DNA of 64,000 nucleotides from Bacteroidota bacterium (lineage in GTDB: Bacteria; Bacteroidota; Bacteroidia; Bacteroidales; Prolixibacteraceae). Position numbers and translations under genes: made by a program. Within the stretch, counting starts at the first letter, position 1, and the number at the start of each line of letters is the position of its first letter. This document shows, in pieces, positions 9,332-64,000 of the stretch. Below the pieces are notes generated by a model. That model did no database searches, had not been told where the DNA came from, and saw nothing but the letters and a program-made list of their open reading frames with translations. The DNA lies in assembly GCA_023251455.1 (NCBI GenBank), contig JAHEYT010000040.1, forward strand, positions 1 through 64,000. Direction: 5' to 3'.

Positions 9332-11140
9332 ATGGAACTTTTCAAACCGAAAGACTTTCTGAAAGCAAATCCGAAACTTAGTTTTATTGGTGGCGAGCAT
9401 TTTGCCAGATTTCTGATGTTATTGTTGCGTTTTGATAAACTTAACCGGATTTATGACCAGATTGGTGATAAAAAAGGACTTGATTTTATTGATGAACTTA
9501 TCAAAATTCTAAGTATAAATTTTTTGTACGATGCTGAGGAACTGCAAAAGCGGGTTCCTAAATCCGGACCGGCAATAGTGGTCAGTAATCATCCGTTTGG
9601 TGGTTTGGAAAGCATTCTGCTGATCAAAATTCTGAGCCAGGTACGTTCTGATGTACAAATTATGTCAACGCAATTGCTCCAGAAAATTGATCCGATTAGT
9701 GAGTTTTTTCTGGAAGAAGATACTTTTCAACGGAAAAATGATAAAAATACGCTGAATTCAGGAACTGATCAAGCTACTGCTCATTTGGAAAATGGTGGAA
9801 TTCTGTGTCTTTTCCCTGCTGGAGACGTGTCTCAGTTTGATGCTTATAGGGTCCTTTCCGATACTCAATGGCAATACGCAACATTGAAATTTATAAAACT
9901 GCAGAAAGTCCCAGTTGTTCCAATTCATTTTCAAGGAAATAACAGTCGATTGTATTACCTGATGGGTCATATTCTTCCGTCGCTGAAGAACATGAAACTA
10001 CCTACTGAAATTCTATATCAGCATAAAAAACCGGTTAAAATCAGAATTGGAAACCCAATTTTAGTTCCGGAGCAGGATAAGTTTGCGGACATCTACCAGT
10101 ATGGGAGGTATTTGCGTGCCAAAACTTATTTGTTGTGTTCCAAGATCGAAGTGAAACGGTTTTTCAATTATTCGCTTAAACGCCAGCAGCGTATTGAGCC
10201 TGTTGCAGAGCCGGTTCCACACGAAAAAATCCTCGACGAATTAAAGAATCTGAGCCCTGAGTTCTTGTTATTTCGGATGAAAAATTATACGGTTTATTGC
10301 GCTCCTTCGAAGCGGATTCCGAATGTTCTCCTTGAAATCGGGCGACTCAGGGAAATTACTTTCAGGCAGGTTGGCGAAGGAACCAACCGGAGCATTGATT
10401 TGGACGAATTTGATTTGTATTATAACCAAATGTTTATTTGGGATAATGAAACCGAAATGATTGCCGGAGCATACCGGATAGGAAAAGGAGCTGATATTTT
10501 GCATCAATATGGTGTGCGCGGGTTCTATATTCAGAGTCTGTTTAAGATAAAGGACGACCTTCAGGACATGTTGAATCAAACGATGGAATTGGGGCGCTCA
10601 TTTGTTGTGAAAGAATACCAACGGAAACCCATGCCTTTGTTTTTGTTGTGGAAGGGGATTCTGTATTTTACACTCAAAAATCCTGAATATCGTTATCTGA
10701 TGGGGCCGGTGAGTGTTTCCGACGATTATTCGACCTCTTCCAAAGAAATGATTATCAAGTTTATCATGGCGCATCATTTCGACTGGAAACTGGCTAAAAA
10801 TATTACGCCCCGGAACTCATATAAATTCAAAACTGAGGATCAAAACCTGAGTATCATTATGCAGACGATGGATAACGACATCAATTCGCTCGATAAATTT
10901 ATAGGCGATGTTGATGAATTGAATTCAGGTTTGCCTGTACTTTTGAAAAAGTATATCAAGCTGAACGCAAAAATTATTGGATTCAATGTCGATCCGAAGT
11001 TTAATAATTGTCTGGATGGCTTGATTGTGCTTGATTTGTGCGATGTTCCGGAGAATACGATTGAATCGCTCTCGAAAGAAGCCAACGATGGTTCCATACT
11101 TCAGCAATTTTATTCGCGCAAACAGAAGGATGGAAAATAA
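9332..11140 (+). CDS. bifunctional OlsF/GlsF-like acyltransferase (aminolipid synthase)
   Basis: A 602-residue fusion. The N-terminal half is a PlsC-like O-acyltransferase with Asn86-His87 in SNHPFGGLE and an LFPAGD block. The C-terminal half (about 300-480) is a GNAT-type N-acyltransferase of the OlsB kind (GRLREITFRQVGEG, DEFDLYYNQMF). In ornithine-lipid and glycine-lipid synthesis the N-acylation is done by OlsB/GlsB and the O-acylation by OlsA/GlsA; fused OlsF enzymes are known in Flavobacterium and Serratia. It probably makes an acyloxyacyl amino-acid lipid at the inner membrane. Whether the amino acid is ornithine, glycine or another is not visible. Confidence 0.85.
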   Translation: MELFKPKDFLKANPKLSFIGGEHFARFLMLLLRFDKLNRIYDQIGDKKGLDFIDELIKILSINFLYDAEELQKRVPKSGPAIVVSNHPFGGLESILLIKILSQVRSDVQIMSTQLLQKIDPISEFFLEEDTFQRKNDKNTLNSGTDQATAHLENGGILCLFPAGDVSQFDAYRVLSDTQWQYATLKFIKLQKVPVVPIHFQGNNSRLYYLMGHILPSLKNMKLPTEILYQHKKPVKIRIGNPILVPEQDKFADIYQYGRYLRAKTYLLCSKIEVKRFFNYSLKRQQRIEPVAEPVPHEKILDELKNLSPEFLLFRMKNYTVYCAPSKRIPNVLLEIGRLREITFRQVGEGTNRSIDLDEFDLYYNQMFIWDNETEMIAGAYRIGKGADILHQYGVRGFYIQSLFKIKDDLQDMLNQTMELGRSFVVKEYQRKPMPLFLLWKGILYFTLKNPEYRYLMGPVSVSDDYSTSSKEMIIKFIMAHHFDWKLAKNITPRNSYKFKTEDQNLSIIMQTMDNDINSLDKFIGDVDELNSGLPVLLKKYIKLNAKIIGFNVDPKFNNCLDGLIVLDLCDVPENTIESLSKEANDGSILQQFYSRKQKDGK

Positions 11141-47943: not shown

Positions 47944-48390
47944 TTATCTATTGGGTGGTTCGTTTACTAAAAGCCAGTACAAACCGGTTTGTGACATGGC
48001 ACTCAAAAAATCTTCAAAATTCACTGGTTTAACAACATAGCTGTTGACACCCAATTCATAAGCTTTTCTGATATCGGGATCCTCACGTGAGGATGTAACC
48101 ATTACTACCGGCATTGATTTAGTGAGTGGATTAGACTTTATTTGCTGAAGTACTTCAAGTCCACTTATTTTGGGTAATTTAAGGTCAAGAAAAATAACTT
48201 TAGGCGGCTGGGCAAAACTTCGGTTTGCATATTTCTCTTTGCAAAAGATGAAATCAAGAGCTTCTTCGCCATCTTCTACGACATAAAGATTATTCGCCAG
48301 GTTGTTCTTTCTCATGGCACGTATGGTCAACTCGGCATCCTGAGGATTGTCTTCAACAATGAGAATTTCAACTGCTTTGAGGTTTTCCAT
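47944..48390 (-). CDS. single-domain response regulator (Rcp1-like)
   Basis: A 148-residue receiver without an output domain. ILIVEDNPQDAELT is the acidic pocket, Asp69 (FLDLKLP) the phospho-acceptor, and the VVKPVNFEDF Lys lies in the last strand. The inserted loop after helix 2 (CKEKYANRSFAQ) is that of the Rcp1 group, which pairs with phytochrome-like kinases. It probably passes phosphate between the neighbouring kinases. The cluster is kinase-kinase-receiver-kinase, all on the minus strand. Confidence 0.92.
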   Translation of the reverse strand: MENLKAVEILIVEDNPQDAELTIRAMRKNNLANNLYVVEDGEEALDFIFCKEKYANRSFAQPPKVIFLDLKLPKISGLEVLQQIKSNPLTKSMPVVMVTSSREDPDIRKAYELGVNSYVVKPVNFEDFLSAMSQTGLYWLLVNEPPNR

Positions 48391-48480
48391 TTCTTTGGTT
48401 TTGGTTATGTTTAGAGTTGGTTAAATATAATAATTTTGGATTAAATCAGGTTTAAAACTCTTTATATGACAGTATTTTAG

Positions 48481-51339
48481 CTAATTGACCGATAATGCAA
48501 AGTAGAACGATGCGCCTTTCCCAACTTCTCCTTCAGCCCATACTCGTCCGTGATGTCTGCTTACTATCCGTTGTACAATTGCCAGTCCAACACCCGTTCC
48601 TTCAAACTCATTCACACTATGTAACCGATGAAATACGCCAAATAACTTGTGTGCATAATCCATATTGAATCCCACTCCATTGTCTTTAATGTAATAAACA
48701 ACCTCATTTTGATTGGGGTACGAACCAATAGTGATTTGGGCATTCTCATTTTTTGACGAATATTTGATTGCATTTGATATTAGATTGATCCATACTTGTT
48801 TAATCAGGTTTGAGTCGCCAATGGTGTGCGGAAGTTCTTGAATTATAATTGTTTTATGAGATAAGTTCTGTACGGTTTCGAAATCAGAAATTACATTCTG
48901 TACCAGACTTTTCATGTCAATTTTTGCGTGGTGTAACTCACTTCTGATTAATCTCGAAAATGAAAGCAAATCATCAATCAATTGGCCCATTTTGATTGCA
49001 TTCGATTGGATAATACCGCAAATTCGTTTGCCCTCATCATCGAGTGTATGCTCGTAATCTTCAAGCAGAATACCTACAAAACCACTGATTGCGCGCAATG
49101 GTGCCCTCAAATCGTGTGATACGGAATAACTGAAGGCTTCGAGTTCTTTATTTGCTATTTCAAGTTGTGCAGTACTTTGCTGAAGCTCATCTGATTTGAG
49201 ATTCAGGTCTTCTACCAGTTTTAACAGAGCAGCCTCATTTTCTAATAATTCGAGGCTACGTTTTTCCAATTCTTTAGTCCGATCAACAACACGTTTTTCC
49301 AGTTCTTCATTGATGCTGCGTATTTTCTCTTCCACGAGTTTTTGTTCAGTAATGTCTTCTCCAATACTGGCAACACCCGAAAACATCCCATTCGATTTAC
49401 GTTGAATGACATTACTCCATGCAATTTCTAATTTCTTCCCAGATTTAGTCAAAATCGGATTTTCAAAGTGTGGAGCAATATCTCCATTATGTAATCCAGT
49501 TATAAACAACTTTTTAACTTCGGTAAGCCCATCGGGAATCATCAAATCAAACCAATCTTTCCCAATCAATTCTTCCAATTGATATCCTGTAAGCTTTAAC
49601 AAATGCTCATTACAGAATGTAACTTTACCACGTGTGTCAAGAATTATTGCAATAAGGTTGACTTTTTCGAGCAACTCACGAAAGCGTAATTCAGATTTGA
49701 TCAGCTTTTCTTCTGCATTTTTTCGATCAGTTATGTTTTTTACTGCTCCATATATTCCTGACAGGCAATTCTTTTCATTATCCCAGACCGGATGGGCAAA
49801 TACTTGTACCCAAACAATTTCTCCACCTCGGTTAATTGTTCTGATCTGACTTTCAGTGCCCTGATTATTTCGTAAGCGGGCAATGTCATTGTCGTCGATT
49901 TTAAGGTCTTTGGGATGAATTGACGCACGCCAAGCTCCAAGGGCTTTAAACTCTTCGACCGAATAACCCGAGATAGACTCGAATGCGCCGGCAACCCAAT
50001 TCAAATCAAGAGAACCGTCGGGCATTACTTTGGTTGAAAACGTGTAGTCGGTTGCTACACTCGATATAAGTCTGTAGCGTTCTTCACTTTCAGATAAGGC
50101 TACTTCTGCTGATTTTCGTTCTGCAATATCCAGACAATGACCAATGTACCCAATGAATTCGCCGGAGATGTTGAAGCGCGGAGTTCCGTTATCTTGTATC
50201 CAGTGATAGTTCCCATCGCGATAACGCAACCGATAATCCATGCTGAACCGTTCCTGACGGTCAAAGGCTTCGGAATATATTTTGAAACATCTGTTTAGGT
50301 CGTCCGGATGAACTCCTTCGGTCCATCCATCACCTATTTCCTGTTCAATGTTTCGTCCGGTGAAGTTAAGCCAGGGTTGATTAAAATAGTTGCACTTTTT
50401 GTCGATTCCCGAAGTCCATATCAATGCCTGACCCGAATCGGCCAATGTTCGGAAATGAAGTTCACTTTCCCGTAGCTTTTCCTCAGTTTCTTTGCGAATA
50501 GCAAATATGTGGTCAACTTCGTTTCCAATTTTTTTTGAAAGCCTTAATATAATGAAGCTGAGTGAAAAAAGTGAGAATATGGTGACCAATGATGAGATGA
50601 GCACATGGTCATTAAATATTTTAATAAAAATAGTGTCAATCCATCCTGCCAGAATGATGATTAGAAGAGTAAGTGGCAAAAAACCTCTCATTAACCTTGC
50701 TCTTAACGATTCTCCAACAAAAAGACTTAAAGGTTTTTCATTCATGCAAAATCCAGTTAATAAACCGATAAACCAGAATGTAAATGCCAGAGCGGTATTC
50801 CATGCCGGTGGTATAACACTATGTCCGTATAAGAGTGGGGTGCCGTATAAATATCCCAGATCGAAGATGAATACAGCCAGCAATGCAATGGTTGATAGTA
50901 TTGTAGCAATTTTATGCCATTTGTTTTTAGCCGAAATAACCAGTAATGAGATAGCGCCGACTAAGAATAAAATACTGGTTACGGGCGACATACGTCCAAT
51001 CGGTAAATTGTTGAATGATCCAGGTGAATTTCCTAAAATGCGTTCAAAATCAATGGAATACCCAGTTAATGTGTCAACTAAAATTATAGCACAAGAAATT
51101 ATTACAATAGATAGGATTATTTTTGCAGGTTTGGTATTCGTGCGTTTTTTCAACAGATGGAGCGCTGCAATACTGCTGAGCAGAAAACAAATAATTGTAA
51201 CCGGAGCCATCGGAATAGAATTTTTACCCATTCCGGCCAACGATAGTGCATTGGCAATCCAACCGGCGAGGGCAATAATACTAATGCTAATTACCATCCA
51301 GAATGACCAAATCGAAATTTTTTCCTGAAATTTTCTCAT
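48481..51339 (-). CDS. membrane PAS sensor histidine kinase
   Basis: A 952-residue kinase. About eight N-terminal membrane helices (to residue 268) form a sensory or anchoring domain of no family I can name. Then come three PAS/PAC domains (about 292-410, 420-540, 550-670), a coiled coil (about 670-735), HisKA with His742 (YSVSHDLRAPL) and a HATPase domain. The SHDLRAPLRAISGF kinase core is the kind seen in phytochrome-like kinases, which fits the Rcp1-like receiver 90 bp downstream. The ATG at 51339 is preferred to a TTG at 51345. Confidence 0.9.
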   Translation of the reverse strand: MRKFQEKISIWSFWMVISISIIALAGWIANALSLAGMGKNSIPMAPVTIICFLLSSIAALHLLKKRTNTKPAKIILSIVIISCAIILVDTLTGYSIDFERILGNSPGSFNNLPIGRMSPVTSILFLVGAISLLVISAKNKWHKIATILSTIALLAVFIFDLGYLYGTPLLYGHSVIPPAWNTALAFTFWFIGLLTGFCMNEKPLSLFVGESLRARLMRGFLPLTLLIIILAGWIDTIFIKIFNDHVLISSLVTIFSLFSLSFIILRLSKKIGNEVDHIFAIRKETEEKLRESELHFRTLADSGQALIWTSGIDKKCNYFNQPWLNFTGRNIEQEIGDGWTEGVHPDDLNRCFKIYSEAFDRQERFSMDYRLRYRDGNYHWIQDNGTPRFNISGEFIGYIGHCLDIAERKSAEVALSESEERYRLISSVATDYTFSTKVMPDGSLDLNWVAGAFESISGYSVEEFKALGAWRASIHPKDLKIDDNDIARLRNNQGTESQIRTINRGGEIVWVQVFAHPVWDNEKNCLSGIYGAVKNITDRKNAEEKLIKSELRFRELLEKVNLIAIILDTRGKVTFCNEHLLKLTGYQLEELIGKDWFDLMIPDGLTEVKKLFITGLHNGDIAPHFENPILTKSGKKLEIAWSNVIQRKSNGMFSGVASIGEDITEQKLVEEKIRSINEELEKRVVDRTKELEKRSLELLENEAALLKLVEDLNLKSDELQQSTAQLEIANKELEAFSYSVSHDLRAPLRAISGFVGILLEDYEHTLDDEGKRICGIIQSNAIKMGQLIDDLLSFSRLIRSELHHAKIDMKSLVQNVISDFETVQNLSHKTIIIQELPHTIGDSNLIKQVWINLISNAIKYSSKNENAQITIGSYPNQNEVVYYIKDNGVGFNMDYAHKLFGVFHRLHSVNEFEGTGVGLAIVQRIVSRHHGRVWAEGEVGKGASFYFALSVN

Positions 51340-51361
51340 CGGCAAATTTTTTGTTTAATGA

Positions 51362-54300
51362 TTAATTGCGGTTAATCGAGAACTTGAATTTACTTCCTTT
51401 TCCTTCCTCGCTTTCCACCCAGATTTTTCCTCCGTGCTTTTCAACAAACTCTTTACAAAGCAATAGCCCAAGCCCGGTTCCTTTCTCGTTTTCGGTTCCC
51501 CGCTTCGAAAAGCTAGATCCAATCTTGAATACCTTTTCTATGTCTTCCTGTTTGATCCCAGTCCCGGTATCCTCAACCGAGACCTCAACTGTATTATCAG
51601 TGTAAAGTGCGTTTATACCAACTTTTCCATTAGTTGAGGTGAATTTTAATGCGTTAGATATCAGGTTTCTAAGTATAGTTCTGATCATGTTTTTGTCAGC
51701 CGTAATAATTATATTATCAGGAGTATAGTTGATAACGGCGATCATTTTGCTGTTTGCTTTTTCAATCGCAAGCTCTATAACTTCATTCACAATGGTTTTT
51801 AAAATGAAAGAACTGGGTTGAAATGGCATTTGAGATTGATGGATTCGCGCCCAATCGAGCAAATTTTCGAGTAGCTTAAACGTGTTATTTGAGGTTGAGT
51901 GAATTATTCCGGCATATTGCTCAATGGTGGCAATATCTAAATATTTGGCATCATTTTTTATAATTTCGCTTAAGCCTAAGATGCTGTTGAAGGGGCTTTT
52001 AAGATCGTGAGCTATGATGGAGAAAAATTTGTCTTTTGTAGCAACCAATTCCTTTAACTGTTCGGAGTATTCCTGAAGCTGCAGTTCAGCTTTTTTGCGT
52101 TGGGTTACATCTCTTGAAATACCTTCATGGTAGATAATATTACCATTTTCATCAGTTGCAAACCATCCATGGTCTTCTACATAAACAATTGTCCCATCTT
52201 TTTTCCTAAGTGGAAATACGTCAAGTTCGTTTAGTCGCATTTTCTTCGTCAGTCTTTCCCTTTCTTCTGAATCGAAATAGAGTTGGGTTTTGATATCGAT
52301 TGACATTAAATCTTCCTTGCTCTCGTAACCCAAAATTCTTACCATGGCATTGTTTACTTCAATAAACTTTCCTTCAGGAGTGCTCCGGTAAACACCATCA
52401 GGCATGGTTTCTATCAGGTTGCGATATTTGGTTTCGCTTTGCCTGAGCATCTCTTCGGCTTGCTTTCTGTAAGTAATGTCGCGCCCAACGCCAAGAACAC
52501 CAATGATTTCATCTTTTTCATTATACAATGGCATTTTAATGGTTTCAAGCAAAGCTTGGTGACCATCAGAAGCAAACGTTATCCATTCTTCATTAATGCT
52601 AGGCTTACCGGCATTCATCGCATTTTGGTCATTTTCACTAAAAAAATCAGCTAAATCCTTATTTACAAAATGGTAATCGGTCTTTCCAACGATATCGGCT
52701 TCGGAAGCGCCAAAAAATTGTTCGAACATCTTATTACACGTAAGGTAAACTCCATTGATATCTTTTAACCAGATTAGATCGGGAATCGTTTGAAGTAAAG
52801 TTCGTAGCTGTGCTTCTTTGTCGGCAAGTGTCTTTTCTGCCAGTTTACGGTCCGTAATGTCAACCGCAACACCAACCATACCTATTGTTTCACCTTGATT
52901 ATCTTGAACAACCGAGGTTGATAATGATATTGGGAATTCTGTTCCATCTTTCCTTTTGTTCAGTATTTCGCCTTGCCATCCGGTTTCAGCTGTAATAGAA
53001 AGTATCTCCTTAACGACTTCCGGATCGTTATTTGTCGACCGAACAATTGAAATATCCTGTCCACTCAGATCCTCATCATTGGCATAGCCATAGGTTTTCA
53101 GGAATGCTGCATTTACAAAAAGAATTCGGTCCTTCATGTCGGTTATGCTGATCGATTCATTGATGCTTTTTAAGGTATGAGCCATCAGGTTCAGTTGCTG
53201 TTCCGATTTTTTTCTGTCCGTGATATCCCTGAAATTCCAAACACGCCCGATGGGGTTGCCATCCAGGTATTGCGGGCATGAAAAACGTTCCAATATTCGC
53301 CCGTCTTTTAATTCTATGGTGTCAAAGCTTTCTAATTTCGGATGGTTATAGAGGTACTGAATCTTTGAAACAAACTGCTCCGGATCTTTCAATTGGCTTA
53401 GAACGCATTCGATGGCACTAGTATCTTCACCAGATTCGAGCACTTCATCCGAATGGTTAAATATTTGCTTGAATTGCTTATTGTAGCTGGTGATTTTACC
53501 CAATCGGTTTACAACCAATATTCCATCAGCCGTTGAATCGAGCGTGGCCTGAAGAAGCGAAAGCGAAAGTTTTAATTTTTCTTCAGCTTGTTTTCGCTCG
53601 GTTAATTCTCTGATTGTTCCTTCCACTCCAGTGACTTTTCCGGTTTCGTCGTATGTGAAATGGGCATTTACCGATGACCAAACTTCCTGGTTGTCGCGCC
53701 CTTTTAATAAAACTTCAAAATCTGAAGCTTCGCCCTTTTGCTGAATTTCATTGACTAATTGTTCTCTGGTCGTTGGATCGACATAAAATTTTTCAATCGG
53801 TTGCCCGATGATATCGGAGTGAACGTACTTTGAGTATCTTTTAATGGATGGACTTATTTCAGTTAAAATGCCATTCAAATCGGTTCGGTAAAATACATCC
53901 TGAACGTTCTCGAATATGCTTTTATACTTGAGTTCGGACTGAATTAATGCTTTTTCTTTGTTTCGGAGTGAGGTAATGTCACGAATGGTAAATTGCTGAA
54001 AAATGTGATTGTCATATTCCAGAATATCTATTGTAACCTCAGTGTCAACGGCGGAATTATCTGTTTTGATGTATTTCCAGCTAAAATTGATGGGGTATCC
54101 TGGATTTGCGGATTCAATCAGTTCCTGAATTTTTTCTGTTGAGCTAATTCCATCATCTTGAATTTCAGGACTCAAATCAACCAATGAACGATTGGTTATA
54201 TCCGATTTTAGCTGAAATCCAAATAACATCAGAGCAGCAATGTTGCAGTCGATTATTTTGGTGCAAGAAGTGAAAATAATTGCTTCACCTGCATTTTCAA

Positions 54301-54373
54301 ATAGAATACGATATAATTCTTTACTTTTAAATAAGCCTTCAATAATGCCATTCCCTTCATCTTCCTTAGCCAT
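51362..54373 (-). CDS. multi-PAS sensor histidine kinase
   Basis: A 1003-residue soluble kinase with six tandem PAS/PAC domains (about 15-137, 145-260, 270-388, 393-510, 518-640, 645-762), HisKA with His789 (SIIAHDLKSPFN) and a HATPase domain to the end. It has no membrane segment and no receiver. The repeated RDIT/DITDRK ends of each PAC are clear. The signal is unknown. It is first in the cluster; the next kinase starts 22 bp downstream, so they share a transcript. Confidence 0.92.
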   Translation of the reverse strand: MAKEDEGNGIIEGLFKSKELYRILFENAGEAIIFTSCTKIIDCNIAALMLFGFQLKSDITNRSLVDLSPEIQDDGISSTEKIQELIESANPGYPINFSWKYIKTDNSAVDTEVTIDILEYDNHIFQQFTIRDITSLRNKEKALIQSELKYKSIFENVQDVFYRTDLNGILTEISPSIKRYSKYVHSDIIGQPIEKFYVDPTTREQLVNEIQQKGEASDFEVLLKGRDNQEVWSSVNAHFTYDETGKVTGVEGTIRELTERKQAEEKLKLSLSLLQATLDSTADGILVVNRLGKITSYNKQFKQIFNHSDEVLESGEDTSAIECVLSQLKDPEQFVSKIQYLYNHPKLESFDTIELKDGRILERFSCPQYLDGNPIGRVWNFRDITDRKKSEQQLNLMAHTLKSINESISITDMKDRILFVNAAFLKTYGYANDEDLSGQDISIVRSTNNDPEVVKEILSITAETGWQGEILNKRKDGTEFPISLSTSVVQDNQGETIGMVGVAVDITDRKLAEKTLADKEAQLRTLLQTIPDLIWLKDINGVYLTCNKMFEQFFGASEADIVGKTDYHFVNKDLADFFSENDQNAMNAGKPSINEEWITFASDGHQALLETIKMPLYNEKDEIIGVLGVGRDITYRKQAEEMLRQSETKYRNLIETMPDGVYRSTPEGKFIEVNNAMVRILGYESKEDLMSIDIKTQLYFDSEERERLTKKMRLNELDVFPLRKKDGTIVYVEDHGWFATDENGNIIYHEGISRDVTQRKKAELQLQEYSEQLKELVATKDKFFSIIAHDLKSPFNSILGLSEIIKNDAKYLDIATIEQYAGIIHSTSNNTFKLLENLLDWARIHQSQMPFQPSSFILKTIVNEVIELAIEKANSKMIAVINYTPDNIIITADKNMIRTILRNLISNALKFTSTNGKVGINALYTDNTVEVSVEDTGTGIKQEDIEKVFKIGSSFSKRGTENEKGTGLGLLLCKEFVEKHGGKIWVESEEGKGSKFKFSINRN

Positions 54374-54516
54374 AACCAGATCATTAAAGATTCATATTTC
54401 AGGCAAAAAGTACTAATAAATTGGAATACAAAAAATATGTTTATGAAGCAAGTATTTTCATGTGTAGCTATTTGTTGTTTTGGAACTGTAAGCTATTTTT
54501 GAAAAGTCCTGGCATT

Positions 54517-54951
54517 TTATTCTTCTTTTGTGTTTACCATCCAAAACGAAAACACATTCAGGTAATTCCAGAACGATTGAATAATATCATCAGGCAATTC
54601 AAGTTTTGACAATACTTGTTGGTAACAATTTAGCCAAACGACTCTGGCTTCTGGAGTTATGGCAAAAGTCGCGTGTCGTCTGGCCAGCATGGGCTTGCCC
54701 CGGTTTTCGTTAAAATACGGATGTCCGCCGCAAATCTGAATAAAAAAGTCGGAAGATCGCTGTTTGGCTTTGTCGAGCGCTTCTTCAATCCGAGGAAATA
54801 AATGTTTGATTTCACTTTGGCTCAATAAATCGTAGTGATCGCTTACCAGTTGACGAATTCCGCTCTCACCAAGCTTTTCCAGAAATTCAGGAGATGGAAT
54901 AGTTACTGCAGGCCTTTGCCCAAATTCATATTGGTTGATTGAAAAATCCAT
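54517..54951 (-). CDS. truncated hemoglobin (group II-like globin)
   Basis: A 144-residue protein of the truncated-hemoglobin family. FFIQICGGHPYFNENRGKPMLARRHATFAI holds the proximal His in RRHATF, and RVVWLNCYQQVL carries the Trp of group II (Trp at G8). Such proteins bind oxygen or NO and are linked to NO detoxification or redox defence. The N-terminus is longer than in many group II forms. It is a single gene, divergent from the XRE-cupin gene and beside the PAS kinase cluster. Confidence 0.85.
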   Translation of the reverse strand: MDFSINQYEFGQRPAVTIPSPEFLEKLGESGIRQLVSDHYDLLSQSEIKHLFPRIEEALDKAKQRSSDFFIQICGGHPYFNENRGKPMLARRHATFAITPEARVVWLNCYQQVLSKLELPDDIIQSFWNYLNVFSFWMVNTKEE

Positions 54952-55144
54952 GATGTTTTAAAATTAACTGTTAAATAAAATCTTCAGGAATATTAACAAA
55001 ATAGAAGCGCAGAGGTTGTCGTCGGGCTAATAAAGATTACTCCAGCAAGTTGTAAGGTTTTAGTAATGAGTGAATTTAATTTTTTTTTGCCAGAAATCTG
55101 AAAAAAGAATAAAATCAGTATATTGAAAACAAAAAATCAAGGCA

Positions 55145-55699
55145 ATGAACGAACAAATTCGACTAATCGCTGCGCGAATAAAGGAACTTCGCGAGATTGC
55201 AGGTATTTCGACCGAAAGCTTTGCAAATGAATTAAATACCGAAAAAGAACTTTTACTGGATTATGAAAATGGGAATTCGGATATCCCGGTTGGTTTTTTG
55301 TTAAAAGTTGCTCACCGCTTCAATCTTGAGCTTTCGGCGTTGCTAAAGGGCGATCAGCCTAAATTGCATGTTTATTCGGTGTCGCGCAAAGGGAAGGGGC
55401 TAAATGTCGATCGACGGAAACAATACAAATACGAAAGTTTAGCTTCCAATTTCATCCATAAAAAAGCGGAACCCTTCATCGTAACCGTTGAATCTGATGC
55501 TACCAACGCTCCGCTTGAATCAAATACTCATCCCGGACAGGAGTTTAATTATGTACTTGAAGGTACTTTGATGATTGTGGTCGACGGACATGAAATTACG
55601 CTGAACGAAGGCGATTCAATCTATTTTGATTCAGGCTATAAACATGCTATGAAAGCCTTAAATAATCAACATGCTAAGTTTTTAGCTGTTATTGTTTGA
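55145..55699 (+). CDS. XRE-cupin transcriptional regulator
   Basis: A 184-residue regulator: an N-terminal XRE helix-turn-helix (about 8-62, IKELREIAGISTESFANEL) and a C-terminal cupin_2 sensor (about 112-184, THPGQEFNYVLEGTLMIVVDG and GDSIYFDSGYKHAMKAL). The cupin may bind a metal or a small acid. It starts a two-gene operon with an acyl-CoA synthetase 42 bp downstream, a pairing that suggests it controls that enzyme in response to a fatty or aromatic acid. Confidence 0.9.
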   Translation: MNEQIRLIAARIKELREIAGISTESFANELNTEKELLLDYENGNSDIPVGFLLKVAHRFNLELSALLKGDQPKLHVYSVSRKGKGLNVDRRKQYKYESLASNFIHKKAEPFIVTVESDATNAPLESNTHPGQEFNYVLEGTLMIVVDGHEITLNEGDSIYFDSGYKHAMKALNNQHAKFLAVIV

Positions 55700-55741
55700 T
55701 CTTAAACTTTAATTAAAGATTTCATCAAGAATTACGAAAAT

Positions 55742-57403
55742 ATGGTACTCGAAAAATATCTTTCACAAACAGAATTCACCTCCTACGAAGATTTTGTAGC
55801 TAATTACAAACTTCAGATTCCTGAAAATTTCAACTTTGCCTACGATGTGGTTGACGAAATTGCACTCAAAACACCCGATAAAATTGCAATGGTCTGGTGC
55901 AACGATTTGGGCGAAGAGCATATTTTCACCTTTGGTCAGATGAAGAAATACAGCGACAAAGCTGCAAACTTTTTCAAATCAGCTGGCATTGGGAAAGGCG
56001 ATCCGGTCATGCTAATTCTGAAGCGGCGTTTCGAATTCTGGTTCTGTATTCTGGCTCTTCATAAAATTGGGGCAATCACCATTCCGGCCACTCATTTGCT
56101 GAGTATGAAAGACATTGTGTACCGAAGCAACGCGGCTGATATTAAGATGATTGTTTGTGTTCCTGAAACTGAAGTTATTCAGCATGTTGAAGCCGCTGAA
56201 GAAAAATCGCCTACATTAAAGGTGAAAGCTTTAATTGGTGAAGACCGTGAAGACTGGCTGAATTTTAACTCCGGAATGGAAAGCAGTTCGGAAGAATTTG
56301 CTCGTCCGCAGGGCGCAGAAGTGACTAAAAATGAGGATATCATGTTGCTGTATTTTACTTCAGGAACCACTGGTATGCCCAAAATGGTTAACCACAATTA
56401 CATCTATCCGCTTGGACACATTTTAACCGCAAAATACTGGCAGAATGTTCAGGATAACGGATTGCATTTTACGGTTGCCGACACCGGTTGGGCCAAATCT
56501 GCCTGGGGAAAATTATATGGACAATGGTTGTCGGGTAGTGCCGTAATGACTTACGATTTCGATAAGTTTATTCCTAAGAATTTGATGGAAGTGATTGAAA
56601 AATATAAGGTTACCACTTTTTGTGCACCGCCAACCATTTACCGCTTCCTGATTAAGGAAGATCTGACTAAATTCGATTTAAGTGCTCTTAAATATTGTGT
56701 AGTGGCTGGCGAACCATTGAATCCGGAAGTGTATAAACAATTTCTGGAAACCACCGGAATCCGGTTGATGGAAGGCTATGGGCAAACAGAATGCACCGTT
56801 TCTTTGGCAACTTATTCGTGGATGGAACCCAAACCTGGTTCTATGGGAAAACCATCACCTGGCTATCCGATTGATTTAGTTGATGACTATGGAAATTCGT
56901 GCGAAATAGGAGAAGAGGGGCAAATTGTTATTTATACCGATCAGCAACCGCCGACAGGAATGTTTAATGGTTATTACCGTGACGAAAAGCTGACCCAAAA
57001 AGTTTGGCACGACGATGTTTACTATACTGGCGATATGGCCTGGCGCGATGAGGATGGCTATTACTGGTTTGTTGGTCGCGCCGACGATGTGATTAAAAGC
57101 TCAGGTTACCGGATCGGGCCTTTCGAGGTAGAAAGCGCACTGATGGAACACCCTGCGGTATTGGAATGTGCGATAACTGCGGTTCCGGATCCTGATCGTG
57201 GCCAGGTAGTGAAAGCGACGATTATTCTGTCGAAAAACTATACTGCAAGCGACGAGCTCGCCAAAGAGCTTCAGGAACATGTAAAAAAAGTTACTGCGCC
57301 ATACAAATATCCACGTATTGTTGAGTTTGTAACCGAATTGCCAAAAACCATCAGCGGTAAAATTCGCCGGGTACAAATCAGGGAAGAAGACGGGAAGGAG
57401 TAG
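55742..57403 (+). CDS. AMP-binding acyl-CoA synthetase
   Basis: A 553-residue member of the ANL superfamily. The P-loop is [12 protein letters not shown]; later come the GEPLNPE and EGYGQTECT adenylate-binding blocks, [20 protein letters not shown] and the C-terminal Lys in [10 protein letters not shown]. It activates a carboxylic acid as the acyl-AMP and transfers it to CoA. Length and pattern are closest to medium-chain acyl-CoA or acetyl/propionyl-CoA synthetases (ACSM-like). The exact acid is not visible. Confidence 0.9.
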
Positions 57404-57470
57404 TAAGCAATATTCAAATTCACAATTAAATCAGAGATATATTTATTGTTCCACCCCAAATAGTTTTTGA

Positions 57471-57505
57471 AAATTGTAGTATATTTATAATCAGCAAATT
57501 GTAGT
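57471..57505. repeat. direct repeat upstream of the first fusion regulator
   Basis: AAATTGTAGT occurs at 57471-57480 and 57496-57505, a 25-bp period, about 80 bp before the regulator ATG. It could be an operator, but differs from the 20-bp-period sites at 61950 and 62845. Confidence 0.35.
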
Positions 57506-57586
57506 TATTTATGGAGTAGCCTGATTCCTGCATTTTAGGAAATTATATGAATACAGGTCTGCTATCAAGGACTAAAATTGCTAATT

Positions 57587-59749
57587 ATGAAACAATTTTC
57601 AATTGTCGATGATTGGATTTCCCGGCTGGTTATTCATGGAAACGATACGCCGGAAGTGATTCTCCGAAAGAAGTTTTTTCTGATTACAAATCTTGTTGCC
57701 ATTTTTTTTATTTCTGGAATAACGGTGTTGGCTTTTCAGCTTGAACTAAAAAAATTTGCCGTTTATATTCTGATGTTACTGACTTTTACGGTGGCTCAAA
57801 CTATGTTGTTGTTCATCATTCGTAAATGGTCGAAATGGTTCATTTATACCGTTTTCAGCGCTTATATTATCCTGATTTTTTACATCATCATCCGTCTTGG
57901 AGGAATCGCCAATTCAGCGGGGCTTTTGATGGCAGCCTATTTTTTTCTGCTCACTGCCCAGTGGATGGAAGATACCAGGTTGCTGATGTTTGTCGGGATA
58001 CTTTATGTAATCGGGGTGCTGGTTGCCGGAATTTCCTTTCCATACCTGAAAATTGATGAGGATTTGGCAGGTTGGAAAAACAACCTCTTTTTTGCCATTA
58101 ATTTCGGCTGGATTGGGCTTTTAATTGCCCTGGCCCTTTATTCAACCATTGTAAGGAGCGAAAACGCTGCTAAAAACCGGGCAGAACAATTACAGGAACT
58201 TGACCTGCTCAAGTCGAAACTTTACGCCAACATTGCCCACGAGTTTCGCACGCCGTTAACTCTAATCAAAGGGAATGCAGTGGAAATTGGAGAAGAGCAC
58301 GAAGGCGAAATCGCTGAAAGGGCACAAAGTATTGTTCACAATTCGGAAAAAATCCTGTTCCTCGTTAACCAGATGCTGAACCTGTCGAAAGTGGAGGAAG
58401 GCGGTTTCCCGGTGCGTTATGTGCAGAGCGATTTGGTAGCTTTTTTGCGGTTAATCTTGGATTCGTTCAGGGAATACGCAACCATTCGAAAACTCGAACT
58501 ACACTATGAACCGGGGTGCCGGCAACTGATGATGGATGTTGACCCGGAGAAACTGGAAGAGTCAGTTTCAAACCTTTTGTCGAACGCCATTAAATACACG
58601 CCGGAAGGAGGCGAGGTTTTTGTTTCGCTACGGATACCCGACACAAACCATTCACCTAATAAAAAGGTTGAAATCAGTGTGCGCGATACAGGAATTGGAA
58701 TTCCGGTGGACCAATTGGATAAAATATTCATCCGCTTTTACCGTGTCGAAGATAAACGGTTCCCCTATCAGGAGGGAACGGGAATAGGACTGACGCTGGT
58801 AAATGAGTATATGAAAATGATGAACGGCACAATTCATGTTAACAGCGCTCCAGAAGAAGGGTCCGAATTTGTAATCACGCTGCCCGTAACTCAAAATGCA
58901 CCGGTTGAAAAAAATATCCGTGTGAAGGGCACTTTTACCAGGATTGAAAAACAGGTTTTTTCAAAATTTAAAACAATTGGTACTGAATGGGGCCTTCCAC
59001 AGTTACTGATTATTGAAGACAATACCGAACTTACAGTATATCTGAAAGGATTATTGGAGAATGATTACCAGGTTATGACCGCCGAAAACGGCATCCGAGG
59101 AATTGAACAAGCCTCTGAACACATTCCGGACATCATACTTAGCGATGTGATGATGCCCGGGAAAGATGGCTTCCAGGTTTGCAGGGAACTGAAGAATGAT
59201 TTCCGCACGAACCACATTCCGGTTGTTTTGCTTACTGCCAGAGCCGACTCCGACTCGCGGATAACCGGGTTTGAATGCGGCGCCGATGCTTACCTGGCCA
59301 AACCTTTCGACAAAAAGGAACTGATGGCTTGCCTGCACAACCTGTTTGTGCAGCGTGAAAAGCTCCGGATGAAATACCAGGCAAAACTATACGAGAAAAT
59401 TCCGGAACAACGCGGAAGCGAGCAAGGCATAAAATTTTTAAACAAAGTTTTATCAGTTCTTGAAAAAAACTACCGGAATGAAAACTTTCGAATCGAAGAG
59501 CTTTACCACCAGTTAGGTATCAGCCGGGTACAGCTTCACCGCAAACTAACCGCACTCACCGGGCAACCGACATCCAATTTTATCCGAAGTTTCCGCCTTC
59601 ACAAAGCCCGGAAACTGCTGCTGGAAACCGATAAAAATGTTTCAGAAATTGCATTCGAAACAGGTTTCTCTGATCCGAACTATTTCACACGGGCGTTTTC
59701 CATGGAATTTGGAATAACACCCACTGAATTTCGAAAATCATTTGAATAA
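57587..59749 (+). CDS. membrane histidine kinase-receiver-AraC fusion regulator 1
   Basis: A 720-residue one-protein two-component system. Six membrane helices (about 30-190) form the sensor, with no periplasmic propeller as in classic HTCS proteins. HisKA has His218 (ANIAHEFRTPL), followed by a HATPase domain (Asn-box LLSNAIKY, GTGIGLTL). The receiver has Asp520 (LSDVMMPGKDG) and Lys572, and a C-terminal AraC domain carries SRVQLHRKLTALTG and VSEIAFETGFSDPNYFTRAF. It would sense a membrane signal and bind DNA. The ATG at 57587 is used; a TTG three codons before is possible. A paralogue follows after 32 bp. Confidence 0.92.
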   Translation: MKQFSIVDDWISRLVIHGNDTPEVILRKKFFLITNLVAIFFISGITVLAFQLELKKFAVYILMLLTFTVAQTMLLFIIRKWSKWFIYTVFSAYIILIFYIIIRLGGIANSAGLLMAAYFFLLTAQWMEDTRLLMFVGILYVIGVLVAGISFPYLKIDEDLAGWKNNLFFAINFGWIGLLIALALYSTIVRSENAAKNRAEQLQELDLLKSKLYANIAHEFRTPLTLIKGNAVEIGEEHEGEIAERAQSIVHNSEKILFLVNQMLNLSKVEEGGFPVRYVQSDLVAFLRLILDSFREYATIRKLELHYEPGCRQLMMDVDPEKLEESVSNLLSNAIKYTPEGGEVFVSLRIPDTNHSPNKKVEISVRDTGIGIPVDQLDKIFIRFYRVEDKRFPYQEGTGIGLTLVNEYMKMMNGTIHVNSAPEEGSEFVITLPVTQNAPVEKNIRVKGTFTRIEKQVFSKFKTIGTEWGLPQLLIIEDNTELTVYLKGLLENDYQVMTAENGIRGIEQASEHIPDIILSDVMMPGKDGFQVCRELKNDFRTNHIPVVLLTARADSDSRITGFECGADAYLAKPFDKKELMACLHNLFVQREKLRMKYQAKLYEKIPEQRGSEQGIKFLNKVLSVLEKNYRNENFRIEELYHQLGISRVQLHRKLTALTGQPTSNFIRSFRLHKARKLLLETDKNVSEIAFETGFSDPNYFTRAFSMEFGITPTEFRKSFE

Positions 59750-59781
59750 CATTTATCTCAATTAGAAAGAAAATAATTACC

Positions 59782-61953
59782 ATGACAATTTTTCAAAAAT
59801 TGGATAAATGGCTAATTAAGGTGCTCAGGCATAAAAGCGATACTCCAGAGGAGTTGGAACAAAAGGTTTATCTTGTCAGAAATGGCATTATGGCCAGCAT
59901 CATACTGTCCAGTCTTGTTTTTGTCCCCATGATGATTTACCAAAAATTTCACTTGTTGTTTCTTGCCAGTTTGTTGGTCTTGGCAATTATCATTACTGAT
60001 GGACTGTTGATGATTATTAAACGTGGGATTAAGTGGTTCTTATATTTTTATTATGGAGGATATATCATTTTATGTACTTGTATAATAATGATTTTAGGTG
60101 GTCTTCCAAACTCTTTGGGGGTTTGGGGTGGAGCATTTATCGTTTTTATGCACTCTTTGGCTGTAAAAGATATACGAATCGTAATTGTTAATGCGAATAT
60201 TTACCTGGGGGGTCTCGTTGCAATTGTTTTACTCTATCCAATTCTTGTCCCAATTAATGAATGGACCCCTGAAATCAATAATTTACTTTTTACCATCGAT
60301 GAAATCTGGATGTGCCTTTTTCTGGTGAAATCGTTTTACGACAGTATTGTTGTCCGCACAAATGAAGCAAAACGAAAGGCTGAACATCTTCAGAAACTTG
60401 ATTTGCTGAAATCGAAACTTTATGCCAACATTACACATGAATTTCGCACACCACTAACTTTAATTCGTGGAAATGCAGAAGAAATCAGCGAACATCAGAA
60501 TGGCGAAACCATAGAAAAGGCAAAAAGCATCATGCAGAGTTCCGACAAAATTTTATTCCTCGTGAACCAGATGCTGAACCTCTCGAAAGTTGAGGAAGGC
60601 CGCGTTCCGTTGCATTACGTTCAAACCGATTTGATATCTTTTGTCCGTTTGGCGGTGGGTTCATTCCAGGGGTTTGCTGAATTACGCAAAATCCGGTTAC
60701 ATTTCGAGCCGCAATCACCACAACTTATTATGGATATTGAACTCGAAAAGCTGGAAGAATCGTTGTCCAATCTTTTATCAAATGCCATTAAATACACCCA
60801 CGAAAGAGGCGATGTTTTTGTTTCGCTCCGGTTGCTAAATTCAGGCTATTCAAAAGAGAAGCAGGTTGAAATCACTGTCCGCGACACGGGAATCGGGATT
60901 GCTGAAAATGAACTGGAGAAAATCTTCATTCGGTTTTACCGGGTTGAAGACAATCGCTTTCCATACCGCGAAGGCACAGGCATCGGGCTGACACTTGTCA
61001 GCGAATACATGAAACTAATGAAGGGCTCGGTAAAGGTGAAAAGCAGCTACGGAAAAGGTTCTGAATTCATCATCACGCTTCCGGTTACCCACAATGCGGA
61101 ATTTGAGGAAGTTGTTCCAGAAAAAAATAAGCCTTTGCACAAAGAGGAACCCAGGAACTTTAATTACCCGGCAGACGACGGAATTATCAGCCATCCCCGG
61201 TTATTGATTGTTGAAGATAATCCTGAATTAAGAGAATACCTTGTTCGTTTGCTGGGAAATGAATACCAGGTTCTGACTGCCGAAAACGGTATTCGAGGAA
61301 TTGAACTGGCCACGGAACACATTCCGGATATTGTGTTGAGTGATGTAATGATGCCCGGTAAAGATGGTTTCCAGGTTTGCCAGAAACTGAAAAACGATTT
61401 TCGTACCAGCCACATTCCGATTGTGCTTCTGACTGCAAGAGCCGATACAGAATCGCGGATAACCGGCCTGGAACGGGGCGCCGATGCCTACCTCACCAAA
61501 CCATTTAACAAAAGGGAACTACAGATTTGCCTGCATAACATCCTGGTTCAGCGCGAGACTTTGCGGTTAAAATTTAATCAGGTTTTTGAAAAAAAGATGG
61601 ATGAGCAGGAACACGGATTAAACGGAAAATTTCTGGAAAAGGTAATAAGCCTTTTGGAAAAGAATTATAAAAACGACAGGTACGGAATTCATCATTTATA
61701 CTCCGATTTAGGAATGAGCCGGGTGCAGCTTCACCGAAAATTAACCGCACTCACAGGACAATCAGCATCGAATTTTATCCGCAATTTCAGGCTGCAAAAA
61801 GCAAAAAAACTTCTGCTAGAAACCAATAAACATGTTTCTGATATTGCATTTGAGGTGGGCTTCTCCGATGCAAGCTATTTCAGCAAATCCTTTATTCAGG
61901 AATATGGAATGGCTTCCACTGAAATGCGAAAATTTTTCAGTTTCAGCCATTGA
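59782..61953 (+). CDS. membrane histidine kinase-receiver-AraC fusion regulator 2
   Basis: A 723-residue paralogue of the preceding regulator with the same layout: six N-terminal helices (about 35-190), HisKA with His219 (ANITHEFRTPL), HATPase, receiver with Asp521 (LSDVMMPGKDG) and an AraC domain with SRVQLHRKLTALTG and VSDIAFEVGFSDASYFSKSF. The kinase, receiver and DNA-binding parts are close to copy 1, while the membrane region has diverged, so the two may read different signals and share targets. Its TGA is the first part of the operator at 61950-61995. Confidence 0.92.
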   Translation: MTIFQKLDKWLIKVLRHKSDTPEELEQKVYLVRNGIMASIILSSLVFVPMMIYQKFHLLFLASLLVLAIIITDGLLMIIKRGIKWFLYFYYGGYIILCTCIIMILGGLPNSLGVWGGAFIVFMHSLAVKDIRIVIVNANIYLGGLVAIVLLYPILVPINEWTPEINNLLFTIDEIWMCLFLVKSFYDSIVVRTNEAKRKAEHLQKLDLLKSKLYANITHEFRTPLTLIRGNAEEISEHQNGETIEKAKSIMQSSDKILFLVNQMLNLSKVEEGRVPLHYVQTDLISFVRLAVGSFQGFAELRKIRLHFEPQSPQLIMDIELEKLEESLSNLLSNAIKYTHERGDVFVSLRLLNSGYSKEKQVEITVRDTGIGIAENELEKIFIRFYRVEDNRFPYREGTGIGLTLVSEYMKLMKGSVKVKSSYGKGSEFIITLPVTHNAEFEEVVPEKNKPLHKEEPRNFNYPADDGIISHPRLLIVEDNPELREYLVRLLGNEYQVLTAENGIRGIELATEHIPDIVLSDVMMPGKDGFQVCQKLKNDFRTSHIPIVLLTARADTESRITGLERGADAYLTKPFNKRELQICLHNILVQRETLRLKFNQVFEKKMDEQEHGLNGKFLEKVISLLEKNYKNDRYGIHHLYSDLGMSRVQLHRKLTALTGQSASNFIRNFRLQKAKKLLLETNKHVSDIAFEVGFSDASYFSKSFIQEYGMASTEMRKFFSFSH

Positions 61954-62016
61954 AACAATACTGCTAACATTGAAACAATAAGAAAGCAATCCTCTCCCTT
62001 TTCATGGATAACTTTG
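61950..62016 (+). promoter_or_regulatory. operator copy 1 and promoter for the FISUMP lipoprotein gene
   Basis: Two exact TTGAAACAATA half-sites (61950-61960, 61970-61980) are 20 bp apart on the same face of the helix, the layout bound by AraC domains. Then 28 bp later comes TAACTTTG (62009-62016), an exact -7 box. No TTTG lies at the -33 position, as expected of an activator-dependent promoter. The 46-bp block 61950-61995 recurs at 62845-62890 with three differences. Confidence 0.75.
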
Positions 62017-62041
62017 GTATAACGATTTAATTAACAAAGCC

Positions 62042-62806
62042 ATGAAAAATATTATCATTTTTATCACAGCGTTGATCTTTACATCTTGGGGATGTGAAAA
62101 AGATCCAATTATTGACCCTGTCTTTGAGGCAAAAACATCACCGAAGGATACCTTAGCTATCAACACCAGTTCAAATTGTCAGTTCAATGACAACGTTCTT
62201 AGTCCTCAATTCAATCCAGATTTGACTTATGGGATGGTTAAAGATATTGATGGCAATGTTTACAAAACAATTCAGATTGGAACCCAGGTATGGATGGCAG
62301 AAAATCTAAGAACAACACGGTACAATGATGGCAGTCCGATTTATTTGGGAACCGGTGACATGGCTGGTGAAACAGATTGGTTTGATTTGAGATCGGGTGC
62401 CTATTGCTGGTATTTCAATGATTCAGTAAACAAAACAATGGGTGCAATTTACAATTGGTTTGCAATTGAACCCGGGAAACTGGCGCCTGAAGGCTGGCAT
62501 GTGCCGTCCAATTCAGATTGGGGAACATTGATAAATTATTTAGGTGGTGAGTCATTGGCTCATAATAAGCTCTTGTCAAAAGGCACAAACGAAAGTGGCT
62601 TTACCGCCATTCCTTCACCCATAGTTTGCGGCTGGGGATTTGGACCTGAAATTTCATTTTGGTCTTCAGCATCATATTCAAATCCCCACGCTTTTGTACC
62701 TTATGCATATTATTTTTGTATATGGGAAGAAAATTCGAATCCAAAAGTTAGTTTATTTAATGATCCTCAATCTTATGGTTTTTGTGTACGTTGTGTCAAA
62801 AACTAG
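62042..62806 (+). CDS. FISUMP domain lipoprotein
   Basis: A 254-residue lipoprotein: signal ending at Cys18 (TSWGC), a linker of about 50 residues, then a FISUMP (Fibrobacter succinogenes major paralogous) domain from about 65 to the end. The YKTIQIGTQVWMAENLRTT start, GAIYNWFA, APEGWHVPSNSDWGTL and the final YGFCVRCVKN block are typical. These domains are common on surface proteins of Bacteroidota and Fibrobacteres; the function is unknown. It is placed under the first operator and faces the same regulators as the next gene. Confidence 0.88.
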   Translation: MKNIIIFITALIFTSWGCEKDPIIDPVFEAKTSPKDTLAINTSSNCQFNDNVLSPQFNPDLTYGMVKDIDGNVYKTIQIGTQVWMAENLRTTRYNDGSPIYLGTGDMAGETDWFDLRSGAYCWYFNDSVNKTMGAIYNWFAIEPGKLAPEGWHVPSNSDWGTLINYLGGESLAHNKLLSKGTNESGFTAIPSPIVCGWGFGPEISFWSSASYSNPHAFVPYAYYFCIWEENSNPKVSLFNDPQSYGFCVRCVKN

Positions 62807-62844
62807 GCTTTTTCAGAATGAGCAAAATCTTGTTAATGCACGAT

Positions 62845-62911
62845 TTGAAACAATACTGCTGACATTGAAACAATAAGGAGGCAATCCTCTTTTGGCAGGG
62901 TTTTAACTTTG
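62845..62911 (+). promoter_or_regulatory. operator copy 2 and promoter for the phosphoesterase gene
   Basis: Half-sites TTGAAACAATA at 62845-62855 and 62865-62875 have the same 20-bp period as copy 1. TAACTTTG (62904-62911) again follows after exactly 28 bp, and a -33 TTTG is again missing. The identical geometry, in otherwise different sequence around the -7 box, indicates function rather than simple duplication of a whole segment. Confidence 0.75.
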
Positions 62912-62950
62912 ATCTATAAAACGAGAAGTTAAATTTAAAAGGAGGTTGTC

Positions 62951-64000
62951 ATGAAAACAAGATTGCTTTTTCTTGCACTTTTTACCCTCATTATGATGGG
63001 TTGTACTGAAAAGGAACTGCTCACAGAACCTGAATCTAGTTCCGTATTGAAATCTGCTGTAGCAAAATTTAAAATTGCTGTTGTTTCAGATATTCATTAC
63101 ATGGACCAAACACTTCTACCTGAAACTCCGGAAGATAATCCAGATTTTCAGACATTGCTGTTCAATAGTTATAATAAAATGATTGAATTAAGCGAACCTA
63201 TATTCGATGAAGCTATTTCTGAACTAAGAAGAGAAAAACCTGATGTATTGCTAATTACTGGCGATTTGGCAAATAATGGAGAACTCACAAATCATGAAAT
63301 TGTAAAGAATAAACTTCAGAAACTTGCCGAAAATGGCACTCAGGTTTTGGTTATCCCAGGGAACAATGATATAAATAGCCCTGATGCCAAGTCGTATTCT
63401 GGTACTGGTTCCAGCGTGGTTCCTGTTGTTAGTCCGGCAGAATTTGCGGCACTTTACGGTGATTTTGGATATAATGATGCCCTTTACAGGGATGTGAATT
63501 CGCTAAGTTATATTTTCCAGGTTCGTGAAAACCTGTGGATTTTGGGGATTGATGCCTGTATTTATTCCCCCGCTTATAAACGGAGTGGATCAATTAAGAC
63601 AGGTACGATGATCTGGATTCAGGAAAAAATGGTAGAAGCAAATGAAAAGGGCATTACTGTACTGGCCATGATGCACCATGGCATTGCTGAACATTACACA
63701 GGTCAGAGTACACTTATTAAAGGAGATGTTGTTAACGATTTCAGTAATGTATCAATTTCTTTAATGAATGCGGGCATCAAACTTGTATTTACTGGACATT
63801 CACACGCAAACGATATTGTTGAAGTATCAGGCAATGGAAATTCGATTTGGGATATTGAAACAGGTTCGCTTGCTACTCCGATAAGTCCATACAGAGTGCT
63901 GACAATTGATGATAATTTCATTAAAATTGAGGCCAGACGAATTACAAAAATTGAAAAGCCATTCCCAGGAGGGAAAAGCTTTTTAGACTATTCAAATTCA
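62951..64000 (+). CDS. calcineurin-like metallophosphoesterase lipoprotein, 3' end missing
   Basis: An open frame of 350 codons runs off the right edge. The start is well supported: AAAGGAGGT lies 6 bp before the ATG, an unusually good Shine-Dalgarno for this window. A lipoprotein signal ends at Cys18 (LIMMGC). The binuclear metal motifs are in order: VVSDIHYMD, ITGDLANNGE, PGNNDI (Asn where GNHD has His), MMHHG and FTGHSHAND. It should be a periplasmic or surface phosphoesterase. The His-to-Asn change at the catalytic GNHD may reduce or alter activity. It lies under the second operator. Confidence 0.88.
   Translation, partial: MKTRLLFLALFTLIMMGCTEKELLTEPESSSVLKSAVAKFKIAVVSDIHYMDQTLLPETPEDNPDFQTLLFNSYNKMIELSEPIFDEAISELRREKPDVLLITGDLANNGELTNHEIVKNKLQKLAENGTQVLVIPGNNDINSPDAKSYSGTGSSVVPVVSPAEFAALYGDFGYNDALYRDVNSLSYIFQVRENLWILGIDACIYSPAYKRSGSIKTGTMIWIQEKMVEANEKGITVLAMMHHGIAEHYTGQSTLIKGDVVNDFSNVSISLMNAGIKLVFTGHSHANDIVEVSGNGNSIWDIETGSLATPISPYRVLTIDDNFIKIEARRITKIEKPFPGGKSFLDYSNS

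Follow-up and report, generated by a model that had tools for sequence, protein, structure and literature searches.

A recurrent tandem element with fixed promoter spacing, probably a control site for lipoprotein-type genes beside paired kinase-receiver-AraC regulators

Results

Two fusion regulators and a duplicated element

The window analysed here is a stretch of 64,000 nucleotides from a Bacteroidota bacterium of the Prolixibacteraceae (genome G000; assembly GCA_023251455.1, contig JAHEYT010000040.1, positions 1 to 64,000). Towards its end, two paralogous regulator genes are followed by two copies of a short element:

57587..59749, + strand: Reg1, 720-aa membrane histidine kinase-receiver-AraC HTH fusion (Pfam HisKA, HATPase_c, Response_reg, HTH_18)
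59782..61953, + strand: Reg2, 723-aa paralogue of Reg1 (same Pfam domains)
61950..61992, + strand: putative operator copy 1, half-sites 61950-61960 and 61970-61980, conserved RGNAANCAAYCC-type tail
62009..62016, + strand: TAACTTTG -7 box of copy 1, 28 bases after half-site 2 (61980)
62042..62806, + strand: FISUMP-domain protein, 254 aa (PF09603, TIGR02145), lipoprotein-type N-terminus, Cys 18
62845..62887, + strand: putative operator copy 2, half-sites 62845-62855 and 62865-62875, conserved tail
62904..62911, + strand: TAACTTTG -7 box of copy 2, 28 bases after half-site 2 (62875)
62951..64000, + strand, running past the window end to G000:C9:64270: metallophosphoesterase, 439 aa (PF00149), full ORF in L073

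By their Pfam matches, both regulators are single polypeptides that combine a kinase, a receiver and an AraC-type HTH, as an HTCS does. They are 54% identical overall and 27% identical in their membrane sensors, and the helix SR[VI]QLHRKLTALTG is present in all nine regulator sequences compared. HTCSs have a large periplasmic sensor domain (Reg_prop/Y_Y_Y), for which neither Reg1 nor Reg2 gives a Pfam match at E <= 0.001. The N-terminal 200 residues of Reg2 are instead predicted to form one short and six long helices (mean pLDDT 79.6, seven sequences), and a fold search with this sensor model returned no match at E <= 0.001. As a query, the N-terminal domain finds a match in just 5 of 393 genomes of the order, its own included, and thus diverges too fast to serve in this way.

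Scanning genome contigs with Reg2 gave at least three loci above 60% identity (L088, L089 and L090, the last being the G011 locus), whose Reg2 orthologues are 64-65% identical and adjoin Reg1 orthologues in each case. No susC/susD genes appear in the ORF lists for window positions 48000-64000 or the next 16 kb. In G011, susC/susD-like ORFs lie about 7 kb away on the opposite strand, without the site. By eye, this opposite-strand stretch near the G011 regulators (L072:10983-18318) reads as two glycosidase-like ORFs (WTNDPNGLV occurs in the first) followed by a susD-like and a susC-like ORF, perhaps a fructan locus. The contig carrying the G011 Reg1/Reg2 pair holds, close together, two more short AraC-fusion regulators (G011:C99:7173-7472 and 9508-9807, minus strand; frames of 708 and 714 aa). 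Elsewhere in the window, the minus strand of 47944-54373 carries a receiver-like ORF (47944-48390) and large multi-domain histidine-kinase-like ORFs (48481-51345 and 51362-54373), all judged by eye.

An earlier sequence-only reading had described the blocks at 61950-61995 and 62845-62890 as 43/46 identical, with two half-sites at a 20-bp period. Direct reading bears this out: the blocks differ at 3 of 46 positions, each consisting of two TTGAAACAATA half-sites whose starts lie 20 bases apart, and the first half-site of copy 1 overlaps the Reg2 stop codon (ORF end 61953). The -7 box that had been placed 28 bp past the second half-site is there in both copies, with TAACTTTG starting at 62009 and 62904, and the -33 box is missing as claimed, as neither copy has a TTTG separated from the -7 box by 17-23 bases.

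Allowing up to three mismatches, the tandem pair matches twice in the window, both times perfectly, where shuffles predict 0.01 matches. The whole genome (5,555,012 bases, the same tolerance) yields the same two only, and its reversed control yields 0. A looser pattern, TGAAACA-13 bases-TGAAACA with two mismatches, was set aside because it is too unspecific, with 77 forward and 89 reverse matches in the same genome, where the reversed control gave 35 and 33. The near identity of the two window copies would fit a repeat that is mobile or duplicated and regulates nothing, a reading to which we give very little credence. The genome-wide check that the sequence-only reading had called for found no scatter of repeats inside genes; the only two copies in 5.56 Mb share one orientation and each stands before a promoter-like box and a gene, and diverged copies in other genomes keep the exact spacing.

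Recurrence in other genomes

A short-core search matched 8 of 140 family genomes, from which G000, G011 and G074 were compared and G043, G061, G062, G073 and G119 left out. G011, of the same genus, carries both regulator orthologues (65% and 53% identical to Reg2), with the site directly behind the second, TAACTTTA at 28 bases and a different lipoprotein-type gene next. Behind Reg2 of L088 and L089 the site is absent; in these two loci, the site and a lipoprotein-type gene (190 or 189 aa) precede Reg1, again with a box at 28. A promoter-free pattern, run on four genomes, located a further site on another contig of the L088 genome (G528), before a 366-aa lipoprotein-type gene and with its box at 28.

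When the promoter-free pattern was run on larger sets, it hit four of 140 family genomes, G133 and G138 being the new ones; among 395 genomes of the class, it hit only that of the window. In G133, the site precedes a metallophosphoesterase 55% identical to that of the window, with TAACTTAT at 28. G138 has two sites on one contig, the first behind its regulator and before a lipoprotein-type protein that shares 62% identity with the one of G011, the second before a FISUMP protein 45% identical to that of the window over 173 aligned positions; both boxes are TAATTTTG at 28. The site goes with its target gene rather than keeping one position relative to the regulators: in G000, G011 and G138 it follows Reg2 or the lone regulator, in L088 and L089 it precedes Reg1, and G528 has one on another contig as well. 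Close behind the FISUMP gene of G138 (L189:9280-10530) is a CRISPR-like array of recurring GTTTCAATTCCA spaced units; its repeat has TTGAAAC on the other strand and was excluded from the half-site count.

The gene after the site has a lipoprotein-type N-terminus in 9/9 cases, that of the window metallophosphoesterase included. These N-termini were judged by eye, and lipidation and location are predicted. The nine targets comprise two FISUMP proteins, two metallophosphoesterases, four members of a small unnamed family and one other, and the small lipoproteins give nothing above cut-off in Pfam. Two more specific assignments were rejected: the window metallophosphoesterase scores 44.8 bits as an anti-phage phosphoesterase (NCBIfam cut-off 420), and the 366-aa protein scores 57.6 bits as an arabinosidase (cut-off 600).

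Geometry of the site and its promoter box

The half-site period is 20 in all nine sites, from six genomes, and the box stands at 28 in 9/9. The seven sites beyond the window were found by scanning without regard to the promoter, and in every one a TAAYTTW box follows half-site 2 at exactly 28 bases; with letters drawn from the surrounding spacers, the chance of this motif at a given position is about 0.0009. TAAYTTTR is found in 8/9 sites, the ninth (G133) having the most deviant box. Counted from the first base of half-site 1, the -7 box thus lies 59 bases downstream (20+11+28).

Conservation extends over about 43 bases, through RGNAANCAAYCC, and the final 16 bases of the spacer are at background level. 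In bits, without small-sample correction for the nine sites, the half-sites reach 1.8 and 1.69, the middle 1.5 and the tail 1.29, followed by 0.46 for the 16 bases before the box, 1.72 for the box and 0.46 downstream. As this gap is at background conservation yet constant, its length is kept and its sequence is not.

The nine sites were also combined into an operator-plus-box pattern, which at up to three mismatches returned six sites in 4 of 140 family genomes and three in two of two further genomes. Since the pattern was built from these sites, their zero mismatches follow by construction; the informative result is the absence, throughout the 142 genomes, of any site with one to three mismatches, the reversed controls giving 0.

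In class II activation by AraC-family proteins, tandem sites abut the upstream promoter element. The arrangement here is alike: the conserved tail stops 16 bases short of the -7 box in 9/9 sites, which places the proximal half-site next to the upstream promoter element, or overlapping it, in each, and activation itself is predicted. Inspected by eye, the -33 region, taken as a gap of 17-23 bases to the box, holds TTTG in 0/9 sites; TTTG lies closer to the box in two (gap 9 in copy 2, gap 4 in the second G138 site, G138b). The primary promoter of Bacteroidota, as described in the part of PMC7366714 compared, has TAnnTTTG at -7 and TTTG at -33. The boxes of our sites resemble the former, as TAAYTTTR in eight and TAACTTAT in the ninth, whereas by eye all nine lack the latter at its distance.

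Association of the site with the regulators

Orthologues of the adjacent kinase-receiver-AraC regulators occur in five of the six site-bearing genomes, and a copy of the site lies within the regulator locus in 5/6. We tabulated co-occurrence in 32 genomes (23 of the same genus, seven of genus g23, and G528 and G529), counting as regulators proteins above 50% identity: five genomes have both, one the site only (G133), none the regulator only, and 26 neither. G528 and G529 entered this set because they carry the regulators, and several of the other assemblies are not complete (as low as 66%). Because all 32 are related, their sites cannot be counted as independent.

G133 is the exception. In this genome (99% complete, 30 contigs), a single regulator match is obtained at E <= 1e-100, of 37% identity, and four AraC-domain matches are 33-40% identical to the AraC domain of Reg2. 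That the site occurs here with no close orthologue of the regulators speaks against the link being exclusive; another regulator may bind it, or the site may be a relic. A second observation comes from G074, where a full-length HTCS of 1303 aa (L081:8030-12039, minus strand) has TTGAAACAATA-N9-TTGAAACATAA immediately after its stop codon, with susC/susD-like genes following. The same half-site thus occurs in a classical setting and is not private to Reg1 and Reg2.

Both observations would suit a site that serves mainly another AraC-type regulator, whether a classical HTCS or a stand-alone AraC protein, with Reg1 and Reg2 as coincidental or secondary neighbours. We hold this to be unlikely, as the site is present in 5/5 genomes with the regulators and absent from 26/27 without, 5/6 site-bearing genomes have a copy within the regulator locus, and the G074 site has no TAAYTTW box at 28. 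Control by Reg1 and/or Reg2 is the reading that we carry forward.

A hybrid regulator in G138

G138 has only one regulator above 41% identity at E <= 1e-100. Its membrane domain is 69, 72 and 60% identical to Reg1 of G000, G011 and L089 and 25-29% identical to four Reg2 proteins. Its AraC domain is 69-75% identical to Reg2 proteins and 60-66% identical to Reg1 proteins. Trees of 11-12 sequences agree with this split. In the AraC-domain tree, G138 falls with the Reg2 proteins, separated from the Reg1 proteins at a support of 0.989, with three outgroup sequences on the Reg1 side and no firm place for G138 among the Reg2 proteins; in the membrane-domain tree, it pairs with G011 Reg1 at a support of 0.977. 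By these comparisons, the G138 regulator is a Reg1-like sensor joined to a Reg2-side DNA-binding domain, and recombination between tandem genes would be the simplest account of it. As G138 has a single such regulator, one may suffice, and two sensors may feed one output.

Discussion

Its sequence and recurrence make it very probable that the repeated element is a true control site, one that governs a small set of cell-envelope proteins. We consider it likely that the two blocks of the window are activator operators for the neighbouring kinase-receiver-AraC regulators, Reg1 and/or Reg2. The small lipoprotein regulon under one or both of them, as the sequence-only reading had it, gains support from a geometry that recurs in five other genomes.

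We propose a model in which the six-helix membrane sensor of Reg1 and/or Reg2 would receive a signal, leading to phosphorylation of the fused receiver, which in turn would free the AraC domain. Two monomers would then occupy the 43-bp bipartite operator as neighbours on the same face of the helix, the first helix-turn-helix of each at a TTGAAACAATA half-site and the second one turn downstream, at CTGCTAACA and RGNAANCAAYCC. We infer binding, phosphorylation and this assignment of subsites. The downstream monomer would end where a -33 box would lie, recruiting RNA polymerase to TAACTTTG by class II activation. The outputs would be envelope lipoproteins, the FISUMP protein and the metallophosphoesterase here and related or other lipoproteins elsewhere.

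The direction of control is likewise a prediction. Were the regulators to bind the element as repressors, or to act both ways, it would be surprising to find it wholly upstream of the -7 box and to find TTTG at the -33 distance absent from 9/9 sites. A 16-base gap fixed in length and free in sequence is what would be expected for a protein-polymerase contact, and we assign repression or dual action only a slight probability. Activation remains our preferred reading.

The type of operator is already known from published HTCS direct repeats and gel shifts. In the part of Ravcheev et al. 2013 (PMC3878776) compared, 16 Bacteroides HTCSs are described with predicted direct-repeat operators averaging 21 bp, near the period of 20 in our nine sites. 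The repeats are read there as two monomers on one DNA face, two turns apart, and the neighbouring paralogues BT4111 and BT4124 are proposed to share one motif. Those HTCSs were chosen for susC/susD linkage, and the direct-repeat operators are described for polysaccharide loci. Ours resemble them in having an AraC-type domain fused to kinase and receiver and a direct-repeat operator. They differ in their six-helix membrane sensor, their pairing, their single lipoprotein-type targets and the exact distance to a -7 box, for which the part of that paper compared gives no value. A second study (mBio 2024, PMC11253607), in the part compared, reports that receiver-DBD inhibition controls HTCS DNA binding, with gel shifts for BT4124 and BT4663. 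The receiver-AraC unit and domain order are the same here, the sensor and targets are not, and such control of Reg1 and Reg2 is predicted. Among the literature matches listed, none was a paper on this operator; those for the half-site string included no Bacteroidota paper, and those for FISUMP, HTCS and lipoprotein contained no 'FISUMP'.

If the model holds, this would be a crisp regulon outside the polysaccharide setting, one whose footprint is sharp, whose promoter geometry is exact and among whose regulators a natural hybrid of sensor and DNA-binding domain occurs. It would place FISUMP and other lipoproteins of unknown role under defined control, and it offers a testable rule for the targets of unassigned regulators of like architecture, namely a first half-site 59 bases before the -7 box.

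It is tempting to go further. Reg1 and Reg2, with sensors 27% identical and matching DNA-binding helices, might converge on one operator as a two-input gate on a portable promoter cassette with interchangeable envelope lipoproteins, tandem-gene recombination having made the intact single regulator of G138, and the 59-bp rule being common to a sister group with TTGAGA at period 21. As a whole, we regard this picture as conceivable and somewhat doubtful.

Evidence for the wider rule comes from other AraC-fusion loci. A period test with 45 regulators was replaced by an HMM version with 127 AraC-domain ORFs, of which 107 remained once identical HTH regions, flanks below 250 bases and domains distant from the C-terminus had been removed. 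Behind these ORFs, exact 8-mers are repeated at period 21 in 12, period 18 in eight and period 20 in seven, where single-letter shuffles give means of 0.0, 0.3 and 1.0, respectively; many of the loci are close orthologues, so these counts are only supportive. Among the sister regulators, three of seven loci repeat TTGAGA at period 21 and place TAAATTTG at 59 bases, counted from where the first half-site starts; these three are of the same genus and not independent, and the other four have no such TTGAGA arrangement. We tentatively suggest that the 59-base rule is shared with the sister regulators. In a Saprospiraceae locus (L091:7890-7930), a regulator with the helix SRTSLHRKI is followed by TTGGAACAATA repeated at period 21, a half-site that differs from that of the window by one base.
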